Positions 9,176 to 22,406 of a DNA stretch of 64,000 nucleotides are shown here, piece by piece. This DNA is from Burkholderia pyrrocinia (lineage in GTDB: Bacteria; Pseudomonadota; Gammaproteobacteria; Burkholderiales; Burkholderiaceae): assembly GCF_018417535.1 (NCBI RefSeq), contig NZ_CP070978.1, forward strand, positions 1,984,001 through 2,048,000, in the 5' to 3' direction. Below the pieces are notes generated by a model. It was not told the DNA's origin, made no database searches, and worked only from the letters and a program-made list of their open reading frames with translations. The translations under genes were made by a program, and so were the position numbers. Within the stretch, counting starts at the first letter, position 1; the number at the start of each line of letters is the position of its first letter.

Positions 9176-10447
9176 TTACGCAGCGCCCGCCAGCGAACGA
9201 TCGAGCGCGACGAGCGTCTGGTACAGCACGCGCGTGCCGTCGAGCAGCTGCTGCGGCTCGATCCATTCCTCCGGGCAATGGCTGCGGCCGCCCAGACACG
9301 GAATGAAGATCATCCCGATCGGCCCCGTCGGCGCGACATACACGGCATCGTGCCCCGCGCCGCTCGGCAGCCGCATGCTCGGATAACCGAGTTGCGTGGC
9401 CGCCTGCTCGACCGCGTCCATCACGAGCGGCTGGCAGTCGGTCGGCCGCGCGCGGCTCACGTGCTCCGCGCGCGCACTCAACCGCAACGCGTCGAGCCGC
9501 GCGGCCGCACCGGCCAGCAGCGCCTCGGGGAAATCGTCGAGCACCGCGTCGCTGTCGCTGCGCACTTCCAGCATCAGCTCGACGTGCCCCGGCACCGCGT
9601 TCGGCACATTCGGCGTCATCGCGATCCGCCCGATCGTCGCGACCACGTAGTGCGGGTTGCCCGACAGCGCCGACGCGCGCGCATGCGCGGCCTCGATCAG
9701 GTGCGCGGCACCGACGAGCGCGTCGCGGCGGATATCCATCGGCGTCGTGCCCGCATGATCGGGCTGGCCGGTCACGGTGATCAGCACGCGCCGGATGCCG
9801 ACGATGTTGGTCACGACGCCGATCGGCAAGCCACGCGTTTCCAGCACCGGGCCCTGCTCGATATGCAGTTCGACGAACGCCGCCGTGCTGCCCGGCGCAC
9901 GCAGCGGTTCGCGCAATGCATCGGGGTTGCCGCCGATCCGGCGCAATGCTTCGGCGAGCGTTTCGCCTTCGGCGTTCGTCGCGCGCAGCATGCCGGCATC
10001 GAGCACGCCCGACAGCGCACGGCTGCCGACGCACGAAATGCCGTAGTCGCTCGGCTCTTCCGACAGGAAGTCGATCACCTCGAATGGATGGTCGAGCACG
10101 ATCCCCTGCTCGTTCAGCGTATGCGCGACCTCGATGCCGGCCAGCACGCCGATGATGCCGTCGAACCTGCCGCCGCCGACGACCGTGTCGCAATGCGACC
10201 CCGTGACGAGCGGCTTCGTGCATCGGCCGCTGCCTGCGCGACGGCCGATCAGGTTGCCGCCCGCGTCCATCGACACCGCGAGCCCGGCTTCGGCGAACTG
10301 CGCGGCGAGCCATGCGCGCGCTTGCGCGAACAGCGGCGAGAATGCGCGGCGCGTCCACGGGACGTCGGGCCGCGTGAAGCGCGCCAGTTGCTCGACACGC
10401 GCGTTCAGGCGCGCCGCGTTCAATGGCGGGAAATTCGTCGGGTTCAT
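9176..10447 (-). CDS. M20-family N-carbamoyl-amino-acid hydrolase (AmaB/HyuC/AllC type)
   Basis: This 423-residue cytoplasmic metallopeptidase-fold enzyme hydrolyses N-carbamoyl amino acids or ureido acids. Family motifs are present: GSHCDTVVGGGRFDG (metal His-Asp), SEEPSDYG (catalytic and metal Glu), LHIEQGPVLE, SGAGHDA and GRSHCPEEW. The usual E-E-x-x-R-F stretch is replaced by EEPSDY, suggesting altered substrate choice. Its ATG overlaps the stop of the upstream cyclic-amidase gene as ATGA, so the two are translationally coupled. In this locus it most plausibly cleaves N-carbamoyl-glutamate to glutamate, CO2 and ammonia (inference). Allantoate amidohydrolase is the alternative. Confidence 0.85.
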   Translation of the reverse strand: MNPTNFPPLNAARLNARVEQLARFTRPDVPWTRRAFSPLFAQARAWLAAQFAEAGLAVSMDAGGNLIGRRAGSGRCTKPLVTGSHCDTVVGGGRFDGIIGVLAGIEVAHTLNEQGIVLDHPFEVIDFLSEEPSDYGISCVGSRALSGVLDAGMLRATNAEGETLAEALRRIGGNPDALREPLRAPGSTAAFVELHIEQGPVLETRGLPIGVVTNIVGIRRVLITVTGQPDHAGTTPMDIRRDALVGAAHLIEAAHARASALSGNPHYVVATIGRIAMTPNVPNAVPGHVELMLEVRSDSDAVLDDFPEALLAGAAARLDALRLSARAEHVSRARPTDCQPLVMDAVEQAATQLGYPSMRLPSGAGHDAVYVAPTGPIGMIFIPCLGGRSHCPEEWIEPQQLLDGTRVLYQTLVALDRSLAGAA

Positions 10448-11829
10448 GCTTGCTCCAATTGCTTCGTGGCCGGGCTGCCGTCATGCGGCCGCAGAAAGCG
10501 GCCCGTTCCAGCCCGATTGACGATCTGCTTGCCGTCGTAAGCCAACGCGCCTCGGCAGTAGGTGGCCGCAATGCGCACCGTGAATTCCATACCCTCGAAC
10601 GCGCTCCACTGCACGGCCGACAGGCTGCGCGACGGATCGAACGCGTAGCGCTCCGGCGTCAGGATCACGAAATCCGCATCCGCGCCGACGTCGAGCGAAC
10701 CCTTGCGATCGTCGAGCAGGAAGTGCCGCGCCGGATTCGTCGCCAGCAATGCCGCCACGCGGGTCGGTGCCAAACCGTGCTGCTCGCAGCCGGTCCAGAA
10801 CGCCGGCAGCAGCGTTTCGAGGCCCGGGCCGCCCGACGCATTGCGGAACACGTTCGGATCGCCCTTGCGTTCGAGCCCCCAGCTCACGTGATCCGACGAC
10901 ACGAACGTGCACTCGCCGCGCGCGATATGCGTCCACAGCCGTTCCTGCTCCGCGCGCGGCCGGATCGGCGGGTAGTGCTTCGTCTTCGCGCCGAAGCGTT
11001 TCGTATGCGTTTCGTGGTCGAGCATCAGGTACTGCACGCAGGTCTCGATGCTCGCGCGATGGCCGGCGCGCCGGTACATGTTGCACAGTTCGAAGCCGCG
11101 CGACGTCGACACGTGCACCGCGTGCGCGCGGGCGCCCGTTTCGGCGCCGATCTCGTAGATCAGCGCGGTCGCAAGGTTCTCGATCAGCGGCGGATGCGCG
11201 CGCAGGAACGCGTCCCAGCCCGTGTCGCCGGCTTCGATCATCCGCGCGATGTTCTTGCGCGTCATGTCCTGCATCTGGTTGTGCACGCCGCACGCGAGGC
11301 CCGACGGCGCGATCAGCCGGAATGCGTCGTGCAGCACGTCCTCCTCGACACGCGGGAACCGGCCGGGCGTCGCCTCGAACGTCGAGAACTTGAACGCGCA
11401 GACGCCGCCGTCGATCAGCCCGGCCGCCGCTTCGAGGCCGTGCTTCGCGTTGAGCGTGCCGTACAACGCGACGTCGACGTGGCAATCGCGCTCGGCCTCC
11501 GCGATCTTGCGGTCGAGCTGCGCGCGCGACGCGACCGGTTCCGGATCGTCGTACGGCATGTCGACCATCACCGTCACGCCGCCCGCGGCCGCCGCGCGCG
11601 ACGCATGGCCAAGCCCTTCCTGGTTCGCCTGGCTGGCCGCATGCACCTGCCCGTCGACGACGCCCGGCAGCACCCACTGCCCGCGCGCGTCGATCGTGTC
11701 GCGTGCCGCCGGCGGCACGCCCGCGCCGCGCGCCACGATCATGCCCTCCCGTATCGCGAGCCAGCCGTCGTCGACGACTTCGCGCGCATCGACCAACCGG
11801 CCGCGCACCACCTGCTCGAATTCGCTCAT
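10444..11829 (-). CDS. Cyclic amidase: dihydropyrimidinase/hydantoinase/allantoinase family
   Basis: The 461-residue amidohydrolase opens cyclic ureides such as hydantoins. Recognisable metal-site residues are Lys147 (carbamylated Lys in AFKFS), His183 (GVHNQ), His239 (VHVST) and Asp313 (SSDHVS). The N-terminal metal motif normally reading D-x-H-x-H is D-G-Q61-V-H63, so one ligand is replaced by glutamine. The start is the ATG at 11829, preceded by AGGAGGTGG; a possible ATG 15 bases upstream has no ribosome site. It is divergent from the LysR gene and coupled to the carbamoylase. It probably converts a hydantoin propionate to N-carbamoyl-glutamate here (inference). Confidence 0.83.
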   Translation of the reverse strand: MSEFEQVVRGRLVDAREVVDDGWLAIREGMIVARGAGVPPAARDTIDARGQWVLPGVVDGQVHAASQANQEGLGHASRAAAAGGVTVMVDMPYDDPEPVASRAQLDRKIAEAERDCHVDVALYGTLNAKHGLEAAAGLIDGGVCAFKFSTFEATPGRFPRVEEDVLHDAFRLIAPSGLACGVHNQMQDMTRKNIARMIEAGDTGWDAFLRAHPPLIENLATALIYEIGAETGARAHAVHVSTSRGFELCNMYRRAGHRASIETCVQYLMLDHETHTKRFGAKTKHYPPIRPRAEQERLWTHIARGECTFVSSDHVSWGLERKGDPNVFRNASGGPGLETLLPAFWTGCEQHGLAPTRVAALLATNPARHFLLDDRKGSLDVGADADFVILTPERYAFDPSRSLSAVQWSAFEGMEFTVRIAATYCRGALAYDGKQIVNRAGTGRFLRPHDGSPATKQLEQA

Positions 11830-11928
11830 CTCCACCTCCTGCATTTTTGATCACGAGCAGTTTAGGCAGCGCTCTGCCAGAATGTCTCATGCCGATTTAT
11901 CGCCCCCACATAACATGGAGTTAAGGCT

Positions 11929-12819
11929 GTGCGTCTGAACCTGCGCCAGATCGAGGTGTTTCGCGCCATCATGCTGACCGGCTCGATCAGCGGCGCCGCG
12001 AAGCTGCTGCACGTGTCGCAGCCAGCTGTGTCCCGGCTCATTTCGTATGCCGAGCAGCGGCTCGGTCTCGCGCTGTTCGAGCGCATCAAGGGGCGGCTCT
12101 ATCCGACGCCGGAAGCGCAGCGGCTGTTCGTCGAAGTCAATGCGGTGTACCAGGGCGTGCAGCGCGTCAACGAAATCGCGGAAGACCTGATCGAGAACCG
12201 GATGGGCCACCTGCGCATCGCGTGCAGCCCCAATCTCGGGCAATCGCTGCTGCCGCGCGCGATCGCGGCGTTCTACGAGCGCTTTCCCGACGTGCGCATC
12301 ATCCTGCACACGATGATCCCGAACGTGCTGCTGCAGGCCGTGCTCACGCAGCAGGTCGAGCTCGGCATCGCGTTCCTGGAGGACACGCACCCGAACGTCG
12401 AAAGCCAGCTCCTCTATGAAAACCGGATGGTCGCGGCCGTGCCCGCGTCGCACCCGTTCGCGCGGCGCAAGACGCTGGCCGTGCGCGATCTCGCGAACCA
12501 GCCGCTGATCGGTTATGGCAGCGACATTCCGCTCGGGCAACTGGTGCGGCGGCTGTTCAGCGACGAAGGCCTCGTGCCGCAGGTCAAGATCGAAGTGCAG
12601 CAGGCGCACGTCGCGTGCGCGCTCGCGCAGGCCGGCACCGGCATCGCGCTGATCGACGAGCTGACGGTCGCGGGGCCCGTGTGGCCGCAGATCGTCGTGA
12701 AGCCGATCGTGCCGACCATCGCCGCGCCGGTCAGCGTGCTGCATCCCGTGCTCGCGCCGCTGTCGCGCCTTGCGCACGAGTTCATCGACACGCTTCACGC
12801 GCTTTCCGCGGAGGCATGA
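11929..12819 (+). CDS. LysR-family regulator of the adjacent catabolic operons
   Basis: The 296-residue product has an N-terminal LysR helix-turn-helix (RQIEVFRAIMLTGSISGAAK, then LLHVSQPAVSRLI) and a typical effector-binding domain. It starts with GTG at 11929 behind GGAG. It sits between the divergent hydantoinase-carbamoylase pair and the downstream DUF917 operon, so it is well placed to control both. Family proteins respond to a pathway intermediate, which here could be a thiourocanate or hydantoin (inference). Confidence 0.9.
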   Translation: MRLNLRQIEVFRAIMLTGSISGAAKLLHVSQPAVSRLISYAEQRLGLALFERIKGRLYPTPEAQRLFVEVNAVYQGVQRVNEIAEDLIENRMGHLRIACSPNLGQSLLPRAIAAFYERFPDVRIILHTMIPNVLLQAVLTQQVELGIAFLEDTHPNVESQLLYENRMVAAVPASHPFARRKTLAVRDLANQPLIGYGSDIPLGQLVRRLFSDEGLVPQVKIEVQQAHVACALAQAGTGIALIDELTVAGPVWPQIVVKPIVPTIAAPVSVLHPVLAPLSRLAHEFIDTLHALSAEA

Positions 12820-12946
12820 GTTTCGTTGTCGAAATGGGCCGAAATCGTTGTCCAGCCTGCATTTCGCCGTTGAACCGGCGGCGGCGGATCGCCCCGTTCG
12901 CGATCCGTCGTTCAAGCATCACCGGGATTACCCTACGCTTAACATC

Positions 12947-12980
12947 GCGTTATGAAGTCTCCATAAAATAGCAATAACGC
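12947..12980. promoter_or_regulatory. Inverted repeat upstream of the DUF917 operon, possible regulator site
   Basis: GCGTTAT at 12947-12953 and its complement ATAACGC at 12974-12980 flank an AT-rich 20-base spacer in an otherwise GC-rich gap, about 100 bp before the DUF917 start. The size and location suit a regulator-binding site near a promoter, plausibly for the preceding LysR protein. No experimental support exists here. Confidence 0.35.
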
Positions 12981-13079
12981 TCAATATTCGGCGTCCCTAG
13001 AATCGTTTGGACAGTACCGCCACACAAGGCTTTCCGGCCGGCGCGTACAGCCCTTTTCCCCTCTCAGGACAAACGACAC

Positions 13080-14171
13080 ATGGGACGCATTCTGTCTTCG
13101 AAGGACGTCGAAGCCGCCGTCAAGGGCGGCTCGGTTTTCGCATGCGGAGGTGGCGGCTGGGCCGACCACGGCCGCGAACTCGGCACGCTCGCGGTCACGA
13201 TCGGCCGCCCCGAACTGGTTGCCATCGACGAATTGCCGGACGACGCGTGGATCGCCACGGCCGCCGCGATCGGCGCGCCGGGCGGCCTCACCGACTGGCA
13301 AATGCTCGGCGCCGACTACGTGAAGGCCGCACAGCTCGTGCAGGACGCGCTCGGCGCGCCGCTCGCGGGGCTCATCATCGGTCAGAACGGGATGTCGAGC
13401 ACGCTGAACGCGTGGCTGCCGTCCGCGCTGCTCGGCACCAAGGTGGTCGACGCGGTGGGCGACATCCGCGCGCATCCGACCGGCGACATGGGCTCGCTCG
13501 GTCTCGCATCGAGCACGACACCGATGATCCAGGCCGCGGCCGGCGGCAACCGCGCACAGCACGCGTATATGGAAGTGGTCGTGCGCGGCGCGACCGCGAA
13601 AGTGTCGCCGGTGCTGCGCAAGGCGGCCGACATGGCCGGCGGCTTCATCGCGAGCTGCCGCAACCCGATTCGCGCGTCGTACGTGCGTCAGCATGCGGCG
13701 CTCGGCGGCATCAGCCGCGCGCTCGCACTCGGCGAAGCGATCATCGACGCCGAGCGGCGCGGCGGCAGCGCGGTGATCGACGCGATCTGCGCGGCCACGC
13801 ACGGCGAGATCGTCGCGAGCGGCAAGGTCGAACGCAATACGCTCGAATACACGCGCGAGGCGTTCGACGTCGGCCTCGTCCATCTCGGCAGCGGCGCGCA
13901 GCGCGCGGTCATTCATGTGATGAACGAACACATGGCGGTGGACGACGCGCACGGCGAGCGGATCGCAACCTACCCCGACGTGATCACGACGCTCGATGCC
14001 GAAGGCCGCCCCGTCAGCGCGGGCCAGTTGAAGGAAGGGATGGAGATTCACGTGCTGCGGGTCGCGAAGGCGCACATTCCGCTGTCGTCGTCGGTGTTCG
14101 ATCCGGCGGTCTACCCGCCCGTCGAAGCGGCGCTCGGCATCTCGATCGCCGACTACGCGCTCGCGCGCTGA
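13080..14171 (+). CDS. DUF917 family protein (S-methyl thiohydantoin desulfurase-like)
   Basis: This 363-residue protein matches the DUF917 family, with a glycine-rich N-terminus (FACGGGGW about residue 20), an IGAPG segment, and GDMGSLGLASST in the middle. The family has recently been linked to S-methyl thiohydantoin desulfurase in ergothioneine-derivative breakdown; I rely on memory for that link. It is the first gene of a co-directional set and is followed 15 bp later by the urocanate-hydratase paralogue. It would remove the sulfur from a (thio)hydantoin propionate and hand a hydantoin to the amidase encoded across the LysR gene (inference). Confidence 0.8.
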   Translation: MGRILSSKDVEAAVKGGSVFACGGGGWADHGRELGTLAVTIGRPELVAIDELPDDAWIATAAAIGAPGGLTDWQMLGADYVKAAQLVQDALGAPLAGLIIGQNGMSSTLNAWLPSALLGTKVVDAVGDIRAHPTGDMGSLGLASSTTPMIQAAAGGNRAQHAYMEVVVRGATAKVSPVLRKAADMAGGFIASCRNPIRASYVRQHAALGGISRALALGEAIIDAERRGGSAVIDAICAATHGEIVASGKVERNTLEYTREAFDVGLVHLGSGAQRAVIHVMNEHMAVDDAHGERIATYPDVITTLDAEGRPVSAGQLKEGMEIHVLRVAKAHIPLSSSVFDPAVYPPVEAALGISIADYALAR

Positions 14172-14186
14172 ACGGAGGGCACGATC

Positions 14187-15836
14187 GTGAATCAGATGAC
14201 CCGCACCTTCGAAGTCACCTCCGGCAATACGCTGCGCTGCAAGGGCTGGCGCCAGGAAGCGCTGCTGCGCCTGCTCGAGAACGTGCTCGCCGTCGGCGAG
14301 GATCCCGACCAGTTGATCGTCTACGCGGCGCTCGGGCGCGCGGCGCGCGACTGGCCGTCGCACGACGCGATCGTGCGCACGCTGAAGACGATGGACGAGG
14401 ACCACACGCTCGTCGTCCAGTCCGGCAAGCCCGTCGCGCTGCTGCGCACGCATGCGAGCGCACCGCTCGTCGTGATGGCGAACTGCAACCTGATCGGCCA
14501 GTGGGCGAAAGCCGAGCACTTCTACGAACTGGAACGGCGCAACCTGATCTGCTGGGGCGGGCTCACGGCCGGCGACTGGCAGTACATCGGCTCGCAGGGC
14601 GTGATCCAGGGCACCTACGAGATCTTCTCGCGGATCGCCGAGCGCCATTTCGACAACGACCTGCGCGGGCGCTTCATCCTGACGGCCGGCCTCGGCGGAA
14701 TGGGCGGCGCGCAACCGCTCGCGGGCCGGATGGCAAACGCGGCGACGCTCGTCGTCGAGATCGACCAGACGCGCATCGACAAGCGGCTGCAGATCGGCTT
14801 TCTCGAACGGCAGGCGCGCGATCTCGACGAGGCGCTCGCGCTGATCCGCGACGCACAGGCACGGCGCGAGCCGATCTCGGTCGGCCTGCTCGGCAACGCG
14901 GCCGACGTGTTCCCGGCGATCCTCGCGCGCGGCGTCGTGCCCGACATCGTCACCGACCAGACGGCCGCGCACGATCTCGTGTACGGCTACGTGCCGTCGG
15001 GCTACACGCTCGACGCAGTACGCGCGCTGCGCGACAGCGACCGCACGCAGCTGATGGACGCGAGCCGCGCGTCGATCGTGCGTCACGTCGAGGCGATGCT
15101 CGGCTTCAAGGATCGCGGCGCGATCGTGTTCGACAACGGCAACCTGATCCGCACGCATGCGAAGGACGGCGGCGTGGCGCGCGCGTTCGAGATCCCGGTG
15201 TTCACCGAGGCGTTCCTGCGCCCGCTGTTCTGCCGCGCGATCGGCCCGTTCCGCTGGATCGCGCTGTCGAACGACCCGAACGACATCCGCATCGTCGACG
15301 ACTACCTGCTCGAACACTTCCCGGACAACCGGATCGTCACGAACTGGATCCGGCGCGCCCGCGAATGCGTGCCGTTCGAAGGCTTGCCGGCACGGATCGC
15401 GTGGCTCGGCCACGGCGAACGCACGCGGCTCGCGCTCGCGGTCAACGCGATGGTGCGCGACGGCGTGCTGGCCGGGCCGGTCGCGTTCACGCGCGACCAC
15501 CTCGACGCCGGCGCGATGGCGCACCCGAACATCATGACCGAGAACCTGCGCGACGGCTCCGACGCGGTGGCCGACTGGCCGCTGCTCAACGCGATGATGA
15601 GCTGTTCGTCGATGGCCGATCTCGTCGCGATTCATTCGGGCGGCGGCGGCTACAGCGGCTACATGACGAGCGCGGGCATCACCGTCGTCGCCGACGGCAG
15701 CGCGGCGGCGAACGAGCGGCTGACATTGTCGATGACCAACGACACCGCGCTCGGCGTGATCCGCTACGCGGACGCCGGCTACGAAGAAGCGCTCGACGAA
15801 GCGCAACGCAAGCAGATTCCGCATATCCGGCTGTAA
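14187..15836 (+). CDS. Urocanate hydratase paralogue, probable (S-methyl) thiourocanate hydratase
   Basis: The 549-residue product is a HutU-family, NAD-dependent hydratase. It retains LTAGLGGMGGAQPL (dinucleotide site), WIYIGSQG-like WQYIGSQGVIQGTYE, and the catalytic-cysteine segment RPLFCRAIGPFRW with Cys349. It departs from true HutU at several usually invariant places: SGDP is SNDP, and the terminal glycine-rich loop reads HSGGGGYSGYMTSAG. It starts with GTG behind GGAGGG. With DUF917 immediately upstream and a histidase-fold lyase downstream, a sulfur-substituted urocanate is the likely substrate. Ordinary urocanate remains possible, but no hutH, hutI or hutG genes accompany it. Confidence 0.83.
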   Translation: MNQMTRTFEVTSGNTLRCKGWRQEALLRLLENVLAVGEDPDQLIVYAALGRAARDWPSHDAIVRTLKTMDEDHTLVVQSGKPVALLRTHASAPLVVMANCNLIGQWAKAEHFYELERRNLICWGGLTAGDWQYIGSQGVIQGTYEIFSRIAERHFDNDLRGRFILTAGLGGMGGAQPLAGRMANAATLVVEIDQTRIDKRLQIGFLERQARDLDEALALIRDAQARREPISVGLLGNAADVFPAILARGVVPDIVTDQTAAHDLVYGYVPSGYTLDAVRALRDSDRTQLMDASRASIVRHVEAMLGFKDRGAIVFDNGNLIRTHAKDGGVARAFEIPVFTEAFLRPLFCRAIGPFRWIALSNDPNDIRIVDDYLLEHFPDNRIVTNWIRRARECVPFEGLPARIAWLGHGERTRLALAVNAMVRDGVLAGPVAFTRDHLDAGAMAHPNIMTENLRDGSDAVADWPLLNAMMSCSSMADLVAIHSGGGGYSGYMTSAGITVVADGSAAANERLTLSMTNDTALGVIRYADAGYEEALDEAQRKQIPHIRL

Positions 15837-15866
15837 TTCCGTCCCGCACGACGACAGGAGATCGAA

Positions 15867-17189
15867 GTGAAGCAAACCGCGGTTCCCCTCGACACGGCCA
15901 CGGCCGTGTCGCCCCCCGCTTCGAGCGCCGGGCGCGCCATCGCCGCGGCCTCGATCGGCAACGCGCTGGAGTGGTACGACTTTTCCGTCTACGCGTTCTT
16001 TGCCGTGTATATCGCGCAGAACTTCTTCCATCGCGGCGACACGGGCACCGAGCTGGTCGAGGCGTTCATGGCGTTCGGGATCGGCTTCATCGCGCGGCCG
16101 CTCGGCGCGCTCGCGATCGGCGTGTACGGCGATCGCGCAGGCCGCAAGGCCGCGCTGACGCTGACCATTCTCGTGATGGCAGCCGGCACCGCCATCATCG
16201 CGTTCGCGCCGCCGTTCACCGCGATCGGCGTCGGCGCGCCGCTGCTGATCCTGTGCGGCCGCCTGCTGCAAGGCTTCTCGGCCGGCGGCGAAGTAGGCGG
16301 CGCGGCGGCGTTCCTGATCGAGCACGCGCCGGCTGACCGCAAGGGCCGCTACGCGTCGTGGCTGCAGGCCAGCATGGCCGCATCGAACATCCTCGGCGCG
16401 CTGGTCGCCACCGGCGTGACGCTCACGCTGTCGCGCGAACAGATCGGCGACTGGGGCTGGCGGATTCCGTTCATCCTCGGTCTCGCGATCGCGCCGGTCG
16501 GCCTGTGGCTGCGCAAGACGCTCGACGAAACGCCGCATTTCCGCGCGGAGATGGCCCGTGCCGCACACGCACCGGCCGAACGCAAGACGCCGCTGCTGCA
16601 GGTCGTGCGCGACTATCCGCGCGCGCTCGTCGTCGGCACCGGGTTCTCGGTGCTGTGGGCCGTGTGCGTGTATGCGCTGGTGATCTACATGCCGACGCAC
16701 GTGCAGCGCGCGCTGCACTTCGACGGGCGCGACGCGTTCATCGCGTCGCTGGTCGGCAACTGCCTGATGGCCGTCACCTGCGTGTGCGCCGGGAGCTGGT
16801 CGGATCGCTTCGGCCGGCGCACGGTGCTCACGGCCGGCGCGGTGCTGATGCTCGTGTCGGTGTATCCGCTGCTGCGCTGGCTCGCCGACGTGCATACGCT
16901 CGCCGCGCTGATCACGGTGCAGAGCGCGTTCTGCGTGATGGTCGCGATCTTCACCGGCGTCGCGCCCGCCGCGTTGTCGGAGCTGTTCCCGACCCGCGTG
17001 CGCGCGACCGGCATGTCGCTGTCCTACAACATCGCCACGACGATCTTCGGCGGCTTCGCGCCCGCGATCCTCGCGTGGCTCACGCAACGGTCCGGCAACC
17101 CGTTCGCGCCTGCCTGGTATGTGATGGTCGCAAGCGTCATCGCGCTCGCGTCGATCGCCGCGCTGTCTTCCACGTCACGTCACGCCTGA
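15867..17189 (+). CDS. MFS transporter, metabolite:H+ symporter (ProP/ShiA-like)
   Basis: The 440-residue protein has twelve predicted membrane segments and the MHS subfamily signatures: NALEWYDFSVYAFFA near the N-terminus, DRAGRKAAL between helices 2 and 3, and LLQGFSAGGEVGGA in helix 4. The MHS family includes carriers for betaines, shikimate and dicarboxylates. It begins with GTG behind AGGAG, 30 bp after the hydratase gene. It would import the betaine substrate or the lyase product for the cytoplasmic enzymes (inference). Confidence 0.88.
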   Translation: MKQTAVPLDTATAVSPPASSAGRAIAAASIGNALEWYDFSVYAFFAVYIAQNFFHRGDTGTELVEAFMAFGIGFIARPLGALAIGVYGDRAGRKAALTLTILVMAAGTAIIAFAPPFTAIGVGAPLLILCGRLLQGFSAGGEVGGAAAFLIEHAPADRKGRYASWLQASMAASNILGALVATGVTLTLSREQIGDWGWRIPFILGLAIAPVGLWLRKTLDETPHFRAEMARAAHAPAERKTPLLQVVRDYPRALVVGTGFSVLWAVCVYALVIYMPTHVQRALHFDGRDAFIASLVGNCLMAVTCVCAGSWSDRFGRRTVLTAGAVLMLVSVYPLLRWLADVHTLAALITVQSAFCVMVAIFTGVAPAALSELFPTRVRATGMSLSYNIATTIFGGFAPAILAWLTQRSGNPFAPAWYVMVASVIALASIAALSSTSRHA

Positions 17190-17206
17190 ATTCGGAGAAC
17201 TGCTTC

Positions 17207-18841
17207 ATGCAACGCTTCCTCATGCGGAGCGCGGTCGCGCTCGCGCTTTTCGCCGCCGTCCCGGCCTTCGCGGACGTCACGCTCGACGGCCGTTCCGTCA
17301 CGCCCGAATCCATCGCGCGCATCGCCGACGGCGAAGCCGTGTCGATCGCACCGGCCGCCCGCCAGCGGGTCGTCGCCGCGCACGACGTGCTGCTGAAGGC
17401 CGCCGCGGCCGGCCAGCAGATCTACGGGCTGACGGTCGGCGTCGGCCTCAATAAAGACCGCGAGATGGTCGACGCGCACGGCAAGCTGAGCCAGGAGGTC
17501 ATCGACGCATCGACGCGCTTCAACATCGGGCTGATCCACGCACACTCGGGCAGCGTCGGCCCCGACATGAGCGTGCGCGTCGCCCGCGCCGCGATGGCCG
17601 CACGCCTGAACGCGATGCTCGACGGCGGCGCCGGCGTGCAGCCGGCGATCGTCGATGCGTACGCGCAATTCCTCAATCGCGGCGTCACGCCGGCGATGCC
17701 GGCGGACGGCTCGATCGGCGAAGCCGACATCACGATCCTGAGCCACGTCGGCCTCGCGATGCTCGGCGAAGGCGACGTGTACTACCAGGGGCGCAAGCTC
17801 GCCGCCGCCGACGCACTGAAGTCGGCCGGCATCGCGACGATCCGTCCGTACGGCAAGGATGCGCTCGCGATCCTCAGTTCCAACGCGTATTCGGCCGGCA
17901 TGGCAGCGCTGGCGCTCACCGACATGGCGCGTCTCGCGCAGGTGTCGAAGGTCGTGTTCGCACTGAGCCTGCAGGGGCTGAACGGCAACGTGTCGCCGTT
18001 CCGCGAGGACACGCTGGCACTGCGGCCGTTCCCGGCCACGCTGCGCGCCGGCTCGGCGCTGCGCACGCTGCTCGCGGGCAGCAGCCTGTGGAATCGCGAT
18101 CCGGACCGGCCGCTGCAGGATCCGCTCAGCTTCCGCTCCGGCGTCTACCTGCTCGGCGAAGAGGATCGCACCTACGACGAGGCGCGCGCGTTGCTGCAGG
18201 TCCAGCTCAATTCGAGCGACGACAACCCGGGCGTCGCGGTCGGCGTCACGCCGAAGTCGAACCGCGCGCAGGATACGGCCGGTTATGTCGACAGCGGCGG
18301 CGCGGTGCTGCCGAGCGCGAACTTCGAACCGCTGCCGTGGGTGCTCGCGTTCGAACAGCTCGGGCTCGCGCTTGGCCACAACGCGCTCGCGTCCGCGCAG
18401 CGCATCGTCAAGCTGAACGACCCGCACCTCACCGGCCTCGCCCGCTTCCTCGGCACCGAGGAGACCGTGCATGCGTTCGGCGCGATGGAGAAGCCGCCGA
18501 CCGCGCTCGCGATGACGGTGAAGTCGCTCGCGATGCCCGTGTCGCTCGACTACCTGCCGGTCGCCGGCGGCATCGAGGACGTCGCGACGAATGCGCCCGA
18601 AATCGTGCAGCGCGTGCAGAAACAGATCGACTCGAGCTACGCGCTGCTCGGCCTCGAACTCGTCGAAGCCGCGCAGGCGATCGACCTGCGCCAGCGCAAG
18701 CAGCCGTCGTTCACGCTCGCGCCGGCCACGCAGCCGCTCTACCGCGCGCTGCGCACGAAGGTCGCGTTCCTCGAGCGCGACCGCCCGCTCACGCCCGACT
18801 TCCGGGCCGCCGATACGCTGCTGCGCGCGTATCGCGACTGA
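17207..18841 (+). CDS. Exported histidase-fold lyase lacking the MIO motif, ergothionase candidate
   Basis: This 544-residue protein has a Sec signal peptide (MQRFLMRSAVALALFAAVPA, cut after AFA) followed by a complete aromatic-amino-acid-lyase domain. It retains IYGLTVGVG (the family Y-G-x-x-T-G-x-G), SLQGLNGN, QLNSSDDNPGV and FEPLPWVLAFE. The segment that forms the MIO cofactor, normally GSVGASGDLAPL, reads GSIGEADITIL at residues 168-178, so the Ala-Ser-Gly tripeptide is gone. Ergothionases share this fold but eliminate trimethylamine by acid-base catalysis. The likely reaction is (S-methyl) ergothioneine to (S-methyl) thiourocanate, here in the periplasm (inference). Hercynine is another possible substrate. 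Confidence 0.8.
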   Translation: MQRFLMRSAVALALFAAVPAFADVTLDGRSVTPESIARIADGEAVSIAPAARQRVVAAHDVLLKAAAAGQQIYGLTVGVGLNKDREMVDAHGKLSQEVIDASTRFNIGLIHAHSGSVGPDMSVRVARAAMAARLNAMLDGGAGVQPAIVDAYAQFLNRGVTPAMPADGSIGEADITILSHVGLAMLGEGDVYYQGRKLAAADALKSAGIATIRPYGKDALAILSSNAYSAGMAALALTDMARLAQVSKVVFALSLQGLNGNVSPFREDTLALRPFPATLRAGSALRTLLAGSSLWNRDPDRPLQDPLSFRSGVYLLGEEDRTYDEARALLQVQLNSSDDNPGVAVGVTPKSNRAQDTAGYVDSGGAVLPSANFEPLPWVLAFEQLGLALGHNALASAQRIVKLNDPHLTGLARFLGTEETVHAFGAMEKPPTALAMTVKSLAMPVSLDYLPVAGGIEDVATNAPEIVQRVQKQIDSSYALLGLELVEAAQAIDLRQRKQPSFTLAPATQPLYRALRTKVAFLERDRPLTPDFRAADTLLRAYRD

Positions 18842-19007
18842 ACGGCGCGCCGCCCTTCATTCGTTTCATCGCTTTACCAGCCGCCGCGATCGTCGCCCGA
18901 TCGCGGTGCGGGGTACGCACGTCCGGATGTTTGCACGCAGCCGGATCGACCCGCCGTTCGCCGTCTTTCAACGCCGTCTTCCAACCACCACGCACTGGAA
19001 CATCATC

Positions 19008-20108
19008 ATGAAAAAAATCCTGTTCGCGCTGCCGCTCGCGGCGGCCGCCACCGCGCACGCGCAAAGCAGCGTCACGCTGTACGGCATCGTCGAGGACGGC
19101 GTCGACTACGTGTCGAACGTGCAGGGCAAGCATCTCGTGCAGCTCGCGTCGGGCGTGACGGCCGGCAGCCGCTGGGGCGTGCACGGCACCGAGGATCTCG
19201 GCGTGGGCTTGAGCGCGATCTTCCGGCTCGAAAGCGGCTTCGACATCAACTCCGGCCGCCTCGGCAGCGGGCTCGCGTTCTCGCGCAACGCTTACGTCGG
19301 CCTGAACGACGCGAAGCTCGGCACGCTCACGCTCGGCCGCCAGTGGGACTCGATCGTCGACTACGTCGAGCCGTTCACGCTGAACGGCAACATCGGCGGC
19401 TATTACTTCGCGCACCCGAACGACATGGACAACACCGACAACGGCTTCCCGATCTCGAACGCGGTCAAGTACCGCAGCCCGACGATCGCGGGCGTCACGT
19501 TCGGCGGCCTCTACGCGTTCGGCGGGCAGCCGGGCCGGTTCTCGGACAACGCGACGTTCAGCGTCGGCGCGAGCTACGCGGCGGGGCCGGTCGGCTTCGG
19601 CATCGGCTACCTGCGGATCAACAACCCGGGCGTGTCGACGCAGGGCTACCAGAACTATCCGGGCTTCACGAACGCGATCTACGGCAACTACCTCGATGCG
19701 GCGCGCGCGCAGAAGGTGTTCGGCGTCGGCGCGTCGTACCAAGTCGTGCAGTGGCTGAAGGTGCTGGCCGACTTCACGAACACGAACTTCCAGCAGGGCA
19801 GCGCCGGGCACGATGCGACGTTCCAGAACTATGAGCTGTCGACGCTCGTCACGCCGACGCCGGCGGTGACGATCGGCGCCGGCTATACGTACACGACGGG
19901 CCGCGACCATGCGACGAACGCGGAGCCGAAGTATCACCAGTTCAACCTGAGCGTGGAGTACGCGCTGTCCAAGCGCACGAGCGTCTATGTGATGGGGGCG
20001 TTCCAGAAGGCGGCGGGCGATGCGCCGGTCGCGCAGATCGCGGGCTTCAATCCGTCGGGCAACCAGAAGCAGGCGGTCGGCCGTGCCGGTATCCGGCACG
20101 TGTTCTGA
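19008..20108 (+). CDS. Gram-negative porin (OmpC/Omp32 type)
   Basis: The 366-residue protein has a signal peptide ending AATAHA and the first-strand motif QSSVTLYGIVEDGVDYVSN. It also carries the usual burkholderial porin motifs SRWGVHGTEDLG, FSRNAYVGL, GRQWDSIVDYV and a C-terminal aromatic end GRAGIRHVF. It forms a trimeric outer-membrane channel. It lies 166 bp downstream of the lyase and in the same direction, so it probably admits the locus substrate into the periplasm (inference). Confidence 0.93.
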   Translation: MKKILFALPLAAAATAHAQSSVTLYGIVEDGVDYVSNVQGKHLVQLASGVTAGSRWGVHGTEDLGVGLSAIFRLESGFDINSGRLGSGLAFSRNAYVGLNDAKLGTLTLGRQWDSIVDYVEPFTLNGNIGGYYFAHPNDMDNTDNGFPISNAVKYRSPTIAGVTFGGLYAFGGQPGRFSDNATFSVGASYAAGPVGFGIGYLRINNPGVSTQGYQNYPGFTNAIYGNYLDAARAQKVFGVGASYQVVQWLKVLADFTNTNFQQGSAGHDATFQNYELSTLVTPTPAVTIGAGYTYTTGRDHATNAEPKYHQFNLSVEYALSKRTSVYVMGAFQKAAGDAPVAQIAGFNPSGNQKQAVGRAGIRHVF

Positions 20109-20192
20109 CGTTTCCCACGGCTGACGGCCGCGCGTCGCGCGTGCAGGCAGCCGATCCGCTCGCCTTCGCCTTCTCCACACAATTCGATCAGT

Positions 20193-21263
20193 ATGCCTAT
20201 CCATTCAACCCGGAACACCGGCCGGCGTCGCCGCCTTCTGTCGACCCTCGGCGCATCGCTGATCGCCTGCACGATCGCCGACGACGTCTCGGCCCAGTCG
20301 TCCGTATCGCTGTACGGTCTGGCCGACGTGTATGTCGGCACGCAAAAGAGCCTCGGCAAGCCGCGTGCGTATGCGATGAATTCCGGCGGCTTCACGACGA
20401 GCTTCTGGGGCATCGGCGGCCGCGAGGATCTCGGCGGCGGCTATGCGCTGCAGTTCGCGCTCGAAGCGTTCATGCGCCCGTCGAACGGCGGCGCCGGCCG
20501 CTTCAGCGGCGATACGTTTTTCGGCCGCAACGCGTATGTCGGCGTCGCGACGCCGTACGGCGCGCTGCGCGCGGGACGCAACACGACGCCGTATTACATC
20601 TCCGTCGTGCGCTTCAACCCGTTCTCGACGTCGTTCGGCTTCTCGCCGGCGCTAAACCAGATGTACAAGGGCGTATCGGGGCAAGGCCTCGTCGGCGACA
20701 ACGGCTGGAGCAATTCGATCCTGTATTCGACGCCCGCCGACCACGCGCTGCAGGCGAGCCTGATCTATGCGACGGGCAACGAGCCCGGTCACACCGGCGC
20801 GAACCAGTGGGGCGGCAGCGTCACCTACGACCGTCAACGCGCATTCAGTGCGACGCTCGCATTCCAGCAGGCGCGCTACGACCGGACACCGGGCGACCTG
20901 AACGCGTCCATCGCCGGCTTCACGCAGCAGGACGCGGTGTTGGCCGGTGTCGGCTACGACCTGAAGTTCGTGAAGTTCACCGCGTTCTACCAGTACGTGC
21001 ACGACGCGATCGACGGCGGCGGGCTCGGCACGCACAGCGGGCAGGTGGGCGCAGCGGTGCCGGTGGGCTTCGGCACGCTGCTCGCGTCGGTCATGGCCGC
21101 GAAAAGCCACGGCCGCGACCGCCCGTCGAGAACGACCTGGGCGCTCGGCTACGACTACCGGCTGTCGAAACGGACCGACGTCTACGTCGCGTTCATGCGC
21201 GACCGCGCGCGCGGATACGGGAACGGCGATTCGACCGGGCTCGGCCTGCGCACCGCATTCTGA
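20193..21263 (+). CDS. Second Gram-negative porin
   Basis: The 356-residue porin has an arginine-rich N-terminus, a hydrophobic core and a cut near DDVSA, then QSSVSLYGLADVYVG. It also has FWGIGGREDLGGGYALQF, GRNAYVGV and a terminal LGLRTAF. It is 84 bp after the first porin in the same direction, but the two are clearly diverged and not a recent duplication. It may serve the same uptake route or another one. The next gene is convergent. Confidence 0.9.
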   Translation: MPIHSTRNTGRRRRLLSTLGASLIACTIADDVSAQSSVSLYGLADVYVGTQKSLGKPRAYAMNSGGFTTSFWGIGGREDLGGGYALQFALEAFMRPSNGGAGRFSGDTFFGRNAYVGVATPYGALRAGRNTTPYYISVVRFNPFSTSFGFSPALNQMYKGVSGQGLVGDNGWSNSILYSTPADHALQASLIYATGNEPGHTGANQWGGSVTYDRQRAFSATLAFQQARYDRTPGDLNASIAGFTQQDAVLAGVGYDLKFVKFTAFYQYVHDAIDGGGLGTHSGQVGAAVPVGFGTLLASVMAAKSHGRDRPSRTTWALGYDYRLSKRTDVYVAFMRDRARGYGNGDSTGLGLRTAF

Positions 21264-21400: not shown

Positions 21401-22306
21401 TCACTGCGGCTCGCCCATCCCGCCCATCAGCGCCATCAATTGTTCGCGCAGCCACCGGCTGCCCTGGTCCTGATCGGCGCTGCGATGCCAGTAGCAGAAG
21501 TAATCGAGGCCCGGCATCTCGAACGGCAGTTCGAGGATGCGGGCCGGATAGCGCTGCAGCAGCCGCAGCGGCGCCGTCAGCGCGAGATCGCCGCGCATCG
21601 CGATCAGCGGCGCGACCATGTAGTGCTGCACGCGCATCTGGATATTGCGGCGCAGCCCGAGGCGCGTCAGTTCCGCGTCGACGTGCCCGCTGCCCTTGCG
21701 GCGGCTCGACACGTGGATGTGCCCCATCGACAGGTAGTCGTCCATGGTCAGCGTGTCGCCCTTGAACGGGTGATCGTCGCGGATCATGCATGCGTAGCGG
21801 TCGCGCACGAGCAGCGCCTGGTGCAGATGCGGATCGCCAATCAGCGGCGCGTCGATCGCGATGTCGACCGAGCCGTTCGCGAGTGCCGTGGCCACTTCGC
21901 GGCGGTCCATCGTGTAGCTGCGCACGTGCATGCCGGGCGCTTCCCGCTGCAGCAGTTCGCCGAGCGCCGGCAACAGCAGCGCTTCGGTCAGGTCGCTCAT
22001 GCTGAGCCGGAACACGCGCGCCGACGATGCGGGATCGAACACGTCGCCTTCGTGCGCGCTCGAATCGAGCAACTGCAGCGCCTCGCGCACGCGGCCGACG
22101 ATGTTCTCGGCCATCGGCGTCGGCATCATCCCGGCCGGCGTGCTGACGAACAGCGGATCGTTCAGCGTCTTGCGCAGCCGCGCCAGCGCATTGCTGACGG
22201 CCGGCTGCGTGAGGTTCAGCACCTCGGCCGCCCGCGTCAGGTTGCGCTTGTTGTAGATCGCCTCGAATACGACGAACAGGTTCAGATCAATCTTCGAAAG
22301 GCGCAT
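21401..22306 (-). CDS. LysR-family regulator (NodD-like group)
   Basis: The 301-residue product has the helix-turn-helix LTRAAEVLNLTQPAVSNALA and a substrate-binding domain. The ATG at 22306 has a perfect AAGGAG upstream; the frame extends further but without domain content. It lies just downstream of, and in the same direction as, the acyl-CoA dehydrogenase operon (gap 100 bp), which it may regulate (inference). It converges on the second porin gene. Confidence 0.88.
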   Translation of the reverse strand: MRLSKIDLNLFVVFEAIYNKRNLTRAAEVLNLTQPAVSNALARLRKTLNDPLFVSTPAGMMPTPMAENIVGRVREALQLLDSSAHEGDVFDPASSARVFRLSMSDLTEALLLPALGELLQREAPGMHVRSYTMDRREVATALANGSVDIAIDAPLIGDPHLHQALLVRDRYACMIRDDHPFKGDTLTMDDYLSMGHIHVSSRRKGSGHVDAELTRLGLRRNIQMRVQHYMVAPLIAMRGDLALTAPLRLLQRYPARILELPFEMPGLDYFCYWHRSADQDQGSRWLREQLMALMGGMGEPQ

Positions 22307-22406
22307 CGCCGGATCTCCTTGCCGGCATCTTACGGCGTGCGCCTCTCGTTCGTCCATGCCGGCCCCGCGGGCTGCACCAGACGCGTTGCGCATCCCGGCG
22401 CGCCGC

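Follow-up and report, generated by a model that had tools for sequence, protein, structure and literature searches.

We think it likely that the nine genes at positions 9176-21263 of the Burkholderia pyrrocinia stretch analyzed here (64,000 nt, called the window below) form an ergothioneine utilization (Ert) cluster with a periplasmic first step, import of thiourocanate, and LysR control of both arms. We imagine that ergothioneine enters via the porins and that a Sec-exported, MIO-less lyase would split it into trimethylamine and thiourocanate in the periplasm, after which an MHS-like symporter would bring thiourocanate into the cytoplasm. There, thiourocanate hydratase would give thiohydantoin propionate, the thiohydantoin desulfurase would give hydantoin-5-propionate, and ErtD and ErtE would yield N-carbamyl-glutamate and then glutamate. 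The adjacent LysR protein would govern the two arms from two TAAC-N5-GTTA boxes. A sequence-only reading had reported the nine genes as occurring together, and ORF and Pfam analysis placed each of them as follows.

9176..10447, minus strand: ErtE, N-carbamyl-L-glutamate amidohydrolase, last step to glutamate (NF058540, 652.2 bits, cut-off 520; M20 Pfam)
10444..11844, minus strand: ErtD, hydantoin-5-propionate amidohydrolase, a cyclic amidohydrolase (NF058538, 698 bits, cut-off 600)
11911..11923, plus strand: predicted LysR operator TAACATGGAGTTA, a T-N11-A box (TAAC-N5-GTTA) in the ertD/lysR divergent region
11929..12819, plus strand: LysR-type regulator, putative regulator of the cluster (Pfam HTH_1 and LysR_substrate; conserved beside the cluster)
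12940..12952, plus strand: predicted LysR operator TAACATCGCGTTA (TAAC-N5-GTTA), upstream of the desulfurase gene
13080..14171, plus strand: thiohydantoin desulfurase, DUF917/S-Me-THD fold (NF058529, 609.5 bits, cut-off 440)
14187..15836, plus strand: thiourocanate hydratase, urocanase family (NF058530, 1051.7 bits, cut-off 930)
15867..17189, plus strand: MHS-like MFS symporter, putative thiourocanate importer (TIGR00883, 396.2 bits, cut-off 443.45)
17207..18841, plus strand: candidate ergothionase (trimethylamine lyase), MIO-less, predicted to be exported (PF00221; best PDB match 6s7j; motifs)
17207..17272, plus strand: predicted Sec-type signal peptide (22 residues) at the lyase N terminus, with cleavage predicted at AFA/D (from sequence; conserved)
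19008..20108, plus strand: porin (PF13609)
20193..21263, plus strand: porin (PF13609)
21401-22393, minus strand: second LysR gene, just beyond the cluster and not counted as a member

The lyase and symporter genes are placed between the hydratase and the porins, all in one direction. Across the genus, the hydratase exceeds the NF058530 cut-off in 14 of 65 genomes, and the lyase (E≤1e-150) is found in the identical 14 and no other. The grouping is therefore not due to chance, although shared ancestry partly accounts for the co-occurrence inside Burkholderia. By locus title, the set of enzymes, LysR, and MHS recurs in Burkholderia, Paraburkholderia, Caballeronia, Trinickia, Serratia, Pseudomonas gingeri, Pseudorhodoferax, and Raoultella; the Raoultella lyase is split in two pieces. 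Relatives of the first porin at 80% or more are found in Burkholderia, Caballeronia, and Paraburkholderia clusters; that the porins serve as the outer membrane entry route is an assumption.

The lyase (544 amino acids, ATG at 17207) has as its nearest PDB entry the Treponema denticola ergothionase 6s7j (272 bits; the next scores 173 bits). It passed no NCBIfam equivalog; among the matches listed, eight families all fell below their cut-offs, and the histidine ammonia-lyase model TIGR01225 gave 256.3 against a cut-off of 539.15. EAD replaces the Ala-Ser-Gly triad of the MIO, and Leu replaces the Tyr of QDPY; E-[AG]-D at the MIO place together with QDPL at the place of the HutH QDPY was found in 120/120 homologues among the matches listed. 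The genome has three PF00221 genes, namely, the window lyase, HutH, and a gene on C3. The C3 gene, used as a control, is nearer to histidine ammonia-lyases (best 286.6 bits, with just 171.4 for 6s7j) but likewise lacks the MIO triad and reads QDPL. Thus, loss of MIO with QDP-Leu is not in itself diagnostic. The window lyase combines the PF00221 fold, absence of the MIO triad, and 6s7j as nearest structure, and its substrate would thus be ergothioneine, judging from sequence.

Export of the lyase was assessed with a crude rule (a basic n-region, a hydrophobic core, and small-x-small before the mature start), applied to rows that are loci, some of them second copies from the same genome. The rule was positive for the window lyase and for 24 of the 25 ert-context loci, spanning Burkholderiaceae, Yersiniaceae, Pseudomonadaceae, Cardiobacteriaceae, and Raoultella, and for no row of the cytoplasmic enzymes used as controls (ErtB, 0/58; ErtC, 0/44; ErtD, 0/37; ErtE, 0/37). 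False positives amounted to 1/35 LysR rows, 4/38 MHS rows, one locus (L103) of the 14 that carry HutH or another ammonia-lyase, and the fragment L044. The one ert-context locus missed, L045, looks signal peptide-like by eye, as does the rule-negative 44% lyase of L026. Among the matches listed, 103 of 120 lyase homologues were positive, and several of the 17 negatives have other start choices. In three alphaproteobacterial loci (L124-L126), a stop codon lies 4 to 13 codons upstream of the lyase, leaving no room for a signal peptide; these make up our cytosolic-lyase set, from which L127, with an ambiguous start, was left out. It seems likely, then, that the window lyase resides in the periplasm.

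If the lyase is exported, the importer should carry thiourocanate and not ergothioneine, a consequence that the sequence-only reading, which did see an exported lyase, had not drawn. The symporter matches TIGR00883 over the whole model, and this is its best-scoring subfamily; since the score is under the cut-off, the subfamily is not formally reached and "MHS-like" is the strict wording. An MHS gene (59 to 98% identity) adjoins the exported lyase in 26 of the 27 neighborhoods holding a lyase and a thiourocanate-type hydratase; the exception, L038, breaks the rule with a TRAP DctM gene. No MHS gene was found within 20 kb in the cytosolic-lyase loci L124-L126. Paracoccus denitrificans L146 joins the alphaproteobacterial core to an MHS gene (66%) and a lyase with a signal peptide, and a cytosolic spirochete lyase (L040) adjoins a BCCT betaine transporter. 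These pairings are consistent with thiourocanate as the cargo of the window symporter.

An unlikely alternative is that the lyase is cytoplasmic, or its export incidental, and that the symporter imports ergothioneine itself. The solved Treponema ergothionase chain would fit this, as it aligns from query residue 26 and has no counterpart of the signal peptide, as would the relatedness of the MHS protein to the betaine transporter ProP, even though the score with the ProP model NF007927 (283.6 bits) is far under the cut-off of 544. One passage of a review also states that degraders must possess ergothioneine transporters (PMC7653990). This alternative is difficult to reconcile with rule-based signal peptides across the ert-context families and in zero rows of the four cytoplasmic enzymes, or with the absence of MHS from the three clusters whose lyase is clearly cytosolic. 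In addition, whole-genome PF00221 searches of five genomes of one genus (g11; G290 among them has a completeness of 89%) found no ergothionase-type lyase, yet all five retain the cluster and the MHS gene. Their clusters also hold relatives of the second porin (65 to 68%). Retention of MHS in lyase-less clusters is not invariable, since G606 has the hydratase but neither a nearby MHS gene nor an ergothionase-type lyase. A Thalassospira plasmid (21.6 kb read) shows the lyase-less pattern too, but with TRAP genes.

That leaves the specificity of the exported lyases themselves. Exported lyases of Cupriavidus, Janthinobacterium, and L094 have no hydratase within the stretch read, and sister exported lyases, 61 to 66% identical, lie close to HutU or have the same companion genes around them. 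In the tree, the HutU-linked sisters form their own clade (support, 100/100), which suggests a hercynine route there, and the ert-context lyases do not make up one clade; comparison of eight motifs between lyases in ergothioneine and HutU contexts gave no clean residue difference. The hydratase-less loci and the HutU-linked clade indicate that the exported family extends beyond ergothioneine. The window lyase might therefore act on another imidazole betaine, such as hercynine, with thiourocanate supplied by other cells. We find this improbable: besides the sister clade, it could draw on the five g11 genomes and G606, with thiourocanate genes and no ergothionase-type lyase, and on the two exported lyases of Comamonas L026, but within the genus the lyase is confined to the 14 genomes with the hydratase, and in the window it lies with MHS in a single run from hydratase to porins. 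A broader proposal, which we hold tentatively, is that the MIO-less exported family takes trimethylamine off imidazole betaines outside the cytoplasm, from ergothioneine in this locus and probably from hercynine in the sister clade. MHS-like or TRAP transporters would then take up the thiourocanate, which would in part be a public good, so that g11 would live on the thiourocanate of others.

The identities of the four cytoplasmic enzymes are set by curated models. The sequence-only reading of ergothioneine catabolism is borne out for four of the five enzymes by NCBIfam equivalog cut-offs and for the fifth, its "exported histidase-fold lyase" (PF00221 with an N-terminal Sec-type signal peptide by sequence), by the best solved relative. 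Its HutU paralogue is the thiourocanate hydratase, and the amidase and carbamoylase that it had finishing the route to glutamate are ErtD and ErtE. It was also right in taking the DUF917 protein as a desulfurase, but the label "S-methyl" is imprecise here, and the option of S-methyl-ergothioneine as the substrate was rejected on the NCBIfam cut-offs. Although the DUF917 protein falls in the Pfam S-Me-THD families, both S-methyl models miss their cut-offs (hydratase, NF058531, 764.5 against 880; desulfurase, NF058532, 278.8 against 450) where both thio models exceed theirs, placing the locus in the ergothioneine line. Moreover, the best PDB match of the hydratase is 7ned (816.6 bits), which we take to be a thiourocanate hydratase, ahead of 8q9u and 8q9v (610.7 and 609.9 bits), presumably S-methyl thiourocanate hydratases; breakdown of S-methyl-ergothioneine is thus very improbable. 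Ordinary histidine, hydantoin, or allantoin catabolism is scarcely credible and was rejected. In its favor, these families share homology with HutH, HutU, allantoinase, and allantoate amidohydrolase; the hydratase scores above the cut-off of the broad hutU model (704.7 against 375, lower than its NF058530 score); and ErtE clears TIGR01879 (374 against 204) and barely passes the broad allantoate amidohydrolase subfamily model NF006771 (401.6 against 399). Against it, the genome carries a separate HutH-HutU pair on C1, and the scores of the window enzymes exceed the cut-offs specific for ergothioneine but not that for allantoinase (268.4 against 357.85).

LysR regulons characteristically have a T-N11-A dyad in the regulated promoters. 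The pattern TAAC-N5-GTTA, derived from the alignment itself and then counted, precedes both arms in 28/28 aligned loci (chance expectation, about 0.06 of 28 for each region), and it matches the window at the two operators only, with 0.04 expected; an earlier dyad scan under a stricter rule had found the box in just 2/15 rows. Ert loci outside the 28-locus count include L087, L088, L026, L045, L016, and L092. Both regions carry sites in L087 and in L088, L026 has one in the sole region its contig holds, L045 has one in the ertD/lysR region only, and the region for the search is absent from L016. L018, with LysR, MHS, and lyase present, has no exact box. The adjacent LysR protein would probably recognize these predicted boxes. 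A whole-genome search also located a third TAACATNNNGTTA site on C1, about 140 bases before an SBF-like transporter family gene.

Ergothioneine is an antioxidant of fungi and bacteria, and trimethylamine is freed when it is broken down. Should the first cut take place in the periplasm, degraders would need no ergothioneine importer, trimethylamine would be freed outside the inner membrane, and thiourocanate could leak to neighbors. The locus offers a candidate thiourocanate transporter and a candidate regulator with a predicted box, and the signal peptide with MHS provides a marker to separate the two layouts in genomes.

Bacterial ergothioneine catabolism in five steps was reportedly described by Beliaeva, Leisinger, and Seebeck in 2021, and by curated model the window has the same enzyme classes. 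Since that pathway is already published, its core is of a known kind, and any novelty may lie in the layout; no description of a periplasmic lyase with MHS, of the LysR boxes, or of the lyase-less clusters was found in the openly searchable literature. Another bacterial use of external ergothioneine is that of Streptococcus pneumoniae, for which an ABC importer specific for ergothioneine has been described (PMC9732360); that system imports the intact molecule, whereas the nine window genes include no ABC gene. Closer to hand is the ergothionase of Burkholderia sp. HME13 (BAM63550/AB699692), probably of the same genus as the window, which has been used to turn ergothioneine into thiourocanate, with the readout at 311 nm (PMC11089744). 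Our guess that it is orthologous to the window lyase comes from the other two PF00221 genes being HutH and a gene nearer to histidine ammonia-lyases. With the Treponema denticola ergothionase (6s7j and 6s7q), its best solved relative, the window lyase has in common the lack of an MIO triad and the motif QDPLSFR; the solved Treponema chain is without a counterpart of the predicted signal peptide that the window lyase carries.

All nine genes named in the sequence-only reading were found in the window (C2:1984001-2048000 of an 8.54-Mb genome in three contigs). The genes for ErtE and ErtD run leftward; those for a LysR protein, the DUF917 desulfurase, the urocanase-family hydratase, an MHS-like symporter (MHS), the PF00221 lyase and two porins run rightward. 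A second LysR gene (window 21401-22393), whose nearest model, BsrA, is below cut-off, faces the porin end and was seen in the stretch of only a few relatives' loci.

NCBIfam release 20.0 holds models for the ergothioneine pathway and for its S-methyl variant; it names only ErtD and ErtE, and the letters A, B and C for lyase, hydratase and desulfurase are labels of this analysis. The substrate had been read as ergothioneine or S-methyl-ergothioneine. The first half of that claim stood, with cut-offs passed by the hydratase (thiourocanate hydratase, 1051.7; cut-off 930), desulfurase (thiohydantoin desulfurase, 609.5; 440), ErtD (698; 600) and ErtE (652.2; 520), while the second did not, since the S-methyl models failed (764.5 against 880; 278.8 against 450). 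The hydratase also passed the broad hutU model (704.7; cut-off 375), and ErtE was above the broader NF006771 (401.6; 399) and TIGR01879 (374; 204). The best solved relative of the hydratase is 7ned (816.6 bits), with 8q9u at 610.7 and 8q9v at 609.9; the structure files say "urocanate hydratase" only, and we take 7ned to be a thiourocanate hydratase and the other two to be S-methyl thiourocanate hydratases. The genome has one further urocanase-family gene, on C1 beside HutH and under the thiourocanate cut-off, and a whole-genome search found no second DUF917 gene.

The lyase matched eight NCBIfam families, all under cut-off (HutH, 256.3 against 539.15). Among solved structures its best relative is 6s7j, the T. 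denticola ergothionase, at 272 bits; a probable histidine ammonia-lyase comes second (173). The lyase's closest named relatives, at 97%, are from Burkholderia lata, B. sp. D-99, B. puraquae and B. cepacia. EAD occupies the position of the MIO triad (EGD in T. denticola), and QDPLSFR stands where HutH has QDPYSLR. Both E-[AG]-D and QDPL occur in 120/120 homologues listed, out of 1808 at E<=1e-20 from 8000 scored candidates. These motifs alone are not diagnostic, because a 531-aa PF00221 gene on C3 (L002:1372-2967; G000:C3:481968-483341) also lacks the triad and has QDPLSLR, although it scores higher with histidine ammonia-lyases (best 286.6 bits) than with 6s7j (171.4). That gene has GSVGYLTHMAH in place of the triad and no evident signal peptide, and it lies behind genes resembling amino-acid ABC transport. 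PMC13405746 describes ergothionase as lacking MIO and names Cupriavidus neocaledonicus, the species of L021, among carriers. G229, taken as the L021 genome, has two PF00221 genes, one HutH-like by score; the other encodes an exported lyase that shares 68-69% identity with that of the window.

The lyase begins with a predicted Sec-type signal, MQRFLMRSAVALALFAAVPAFA/DVTLDG. By a crude rule of this analysis, signal peptides were scored in the window lyase, in 24/25 loci of ert context (L045 was missed) and in 103/120 listed homologues; the rule was positive for none of the cytoplasmic enzyme rows (ErtB 0/58, HutU-type rows included; ErtC 0/44; ErtD 0/37; ErtE 0/37). Ergothioneine is probably cleaved in the periplasm and thiourocanate imported through MHS. 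If so, the ergothioneine transporter implied for degraders in PMC7653990 would be unnecessary here. Among the open-access matches listed, none placed ergothionase with a signal peptide or the periplasm and none treated thiourocanate transport, which is no proof of novelty; in PMC4621440, "ergothionase" and "periplasm" occur in unconnected passages.

Six peptides of the window lyase retrieved 45 loci (L numbers), a set biased to close relatives. Lyase and thiourocanate-type hydratase occur together in 27, comprising 25 of Burkholderia-like layout (one, L016, on a contig cut short), L026 (Comamonas) and L038 (Cardiobacteriaceae). MHS (59-98% identity) adjoins the lyase in 26 of the 27, and L038 has a TRAP DctM gene instead. 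Comamonas testosteroni (L026:5667-11581) carries two distinct exported lyases, 44% and 67% identical to the window's, separated by genes for a metallo-beta-lactamase-fold protein and a porin-like protein; MHS adjoins the 44% lyase, not the 67% one. Pseudomonas gingeri (L034, L035) has the set of enzymes, LysR and MHS; it is a mushroom pathogen, and mushrooms are rich in ergothioneine. The remaining 18 loci are L018, where a molybdenum hydroxylase gene accompanies lyase, MHS and LysR, and the following.

Remaining loci around relatives of the lyase
HutU-linked (5): L027, L029, L030, L032, L039
Lone lyases (5): L017, L019, L021, L022, L042
Distant or partial (7): L037, L040, L041, L044, L046-L048

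Each lone exported lyase has a weakly similar porin next downstream; the lone-lyase genomes in the family sample (G229, G273, G313) had no hydratase above cut-off. Two unrelated loci (L018:4805-11647, L040:2804-9723) have molybdenum hydroxylase genes in the vicinity of a MIO-less lyase, possibly marking another fate of (thio)urocanate. On Sinorhizobium meliloti pSymA, a 56% identical lyase (L143:8947-10557) has an apparent signal peptide, and no thiourocanate genes lie near it within the 19.6 kb read.

In family samples of 299 genomes, 18 had a hydratase above cut-off, 19 a lyase at E<=1e-100 and 13 both, if the two 299-genome draws are taken as identical. The hydratase is present in five genomes of a single genus (g11) in which PF00221 searches found no ergothionase-type lyase; their PF00221 genes score HutH-like (623-626 bits; exported lyases, 390-410), with one extra ammonia-lyase-like gene in G261. 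Their clusters retain LysR, porin and MHS (60-64%), and the slot separating porin from MHS, a likely place for a lyase, is taken by a UbiD-family gene. UbiD-family decarboxylase genes occur in lyase-less thiourocanate clusters of two distant lineages (L086-L090 of g11; L145:11644-13062).

By analogy with named plasmids bearing like clusters, we guess that the four genomes of L124-L127 and that of L128 are alphaproteobacterial. The MIO-less lyases of L124-L126 (29-30%) have a stop codon 4-13 codons upstream and so cannot carry a signal; no MHS lies within the 20 kb read. In Paracoccus denitrificans (L146) an alphaproteobacterial-type core is joined by MHS and by a lyase bearing a signal peptide, which suggests that the latter two move together as a pair. 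Thalassospira L145 (core, UbiD, TRAP) and Paracoccus aminophilus L144 (core, TRAP genes nearby) showed no lyase in the ~21.6 kb read, and in a spirochaete (L040) a cytosolic lyase adjoins a BCCT transporter. Two cases count against a simple lyase/MHS rule: in G606 (L128), hydratase, desulfurase and ErtD are accompanied by no MHS within 20 kb and the sole PF00221 gene is HutH-like, and L147 has neither lyase nor MHS in the stretch read. MHS so accompanies exported lyases, or no lyase in g11, and is unseen with three clearly cytosolic ones, in a small sample with several incomplete loci.

LysR proteins have boxes of the type T-N11-A. Alignment showed a dyad common to both intergenic regions:

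Predicted LysR boxes in the window
11911-11923, TAAC-N5-GTTA
12940-12952, TAAC-N5-GTTA

The window holds no other such site (2 found, 0.04 expected). Both regions have the box in 28/28 loci (base shuffling predicts ~0.06 of 28 for each region), namely the window and 27 relatives in plus orientation with both regions covered; the Burkholderia rows are near copies, and those of Serratia, Pseudomonas, Raoultella and g11 are not. It also lies upstream of 4/5 lone lyases (Cupriavidus L019, L021, L022; Janthinobacterium L042); the exact box was absent from L017, L018, the five HutU-linked loci and L124-L128. The stricter TAACATNNNGTTA has three sites in the genome, two of them in the window. The third (L129:3999-4011; G000:C1:3372698-3372710), ~140 bases upstream of an SBF-like transporter gene, is either chance or a third regulon member.

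HutU itself was seen in two of the five HutU-linked loci (L029 and L039, the latter with HutI and HutF) and in L148; L027 and L032 share ornithine-cyclodeaminase-like and MFS companions, and L030 has the former only. Exported MIO-less lyases, 61-66% identical, occur at L039:1629-11614, L148:6857-13350, L029, L032, L027 and L030, accompanied by an ornithine-cyclodeaminase-like gene, an MFS gene or both. They form one clade (support 100/100; the tree took in five of the six loci), and a route from hercynine to urocanate is probable for them.

A hydratase above cut-off was found in 14/65 genomes of the genus, in 1/399 of the order sample (the window's own) and in 6/398 of the phylum sample (own included); the cluster is an accessory trait. 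The ergothioneine pathway is already known, and the window's cluster is a well-conserved member. What appears new is the predicted periplasmic cleavage followed by import of its product, supported from sequence as a variant of the known pathway, together with the predicted box, the lyase-less relatives and the HutU-linked relatives.
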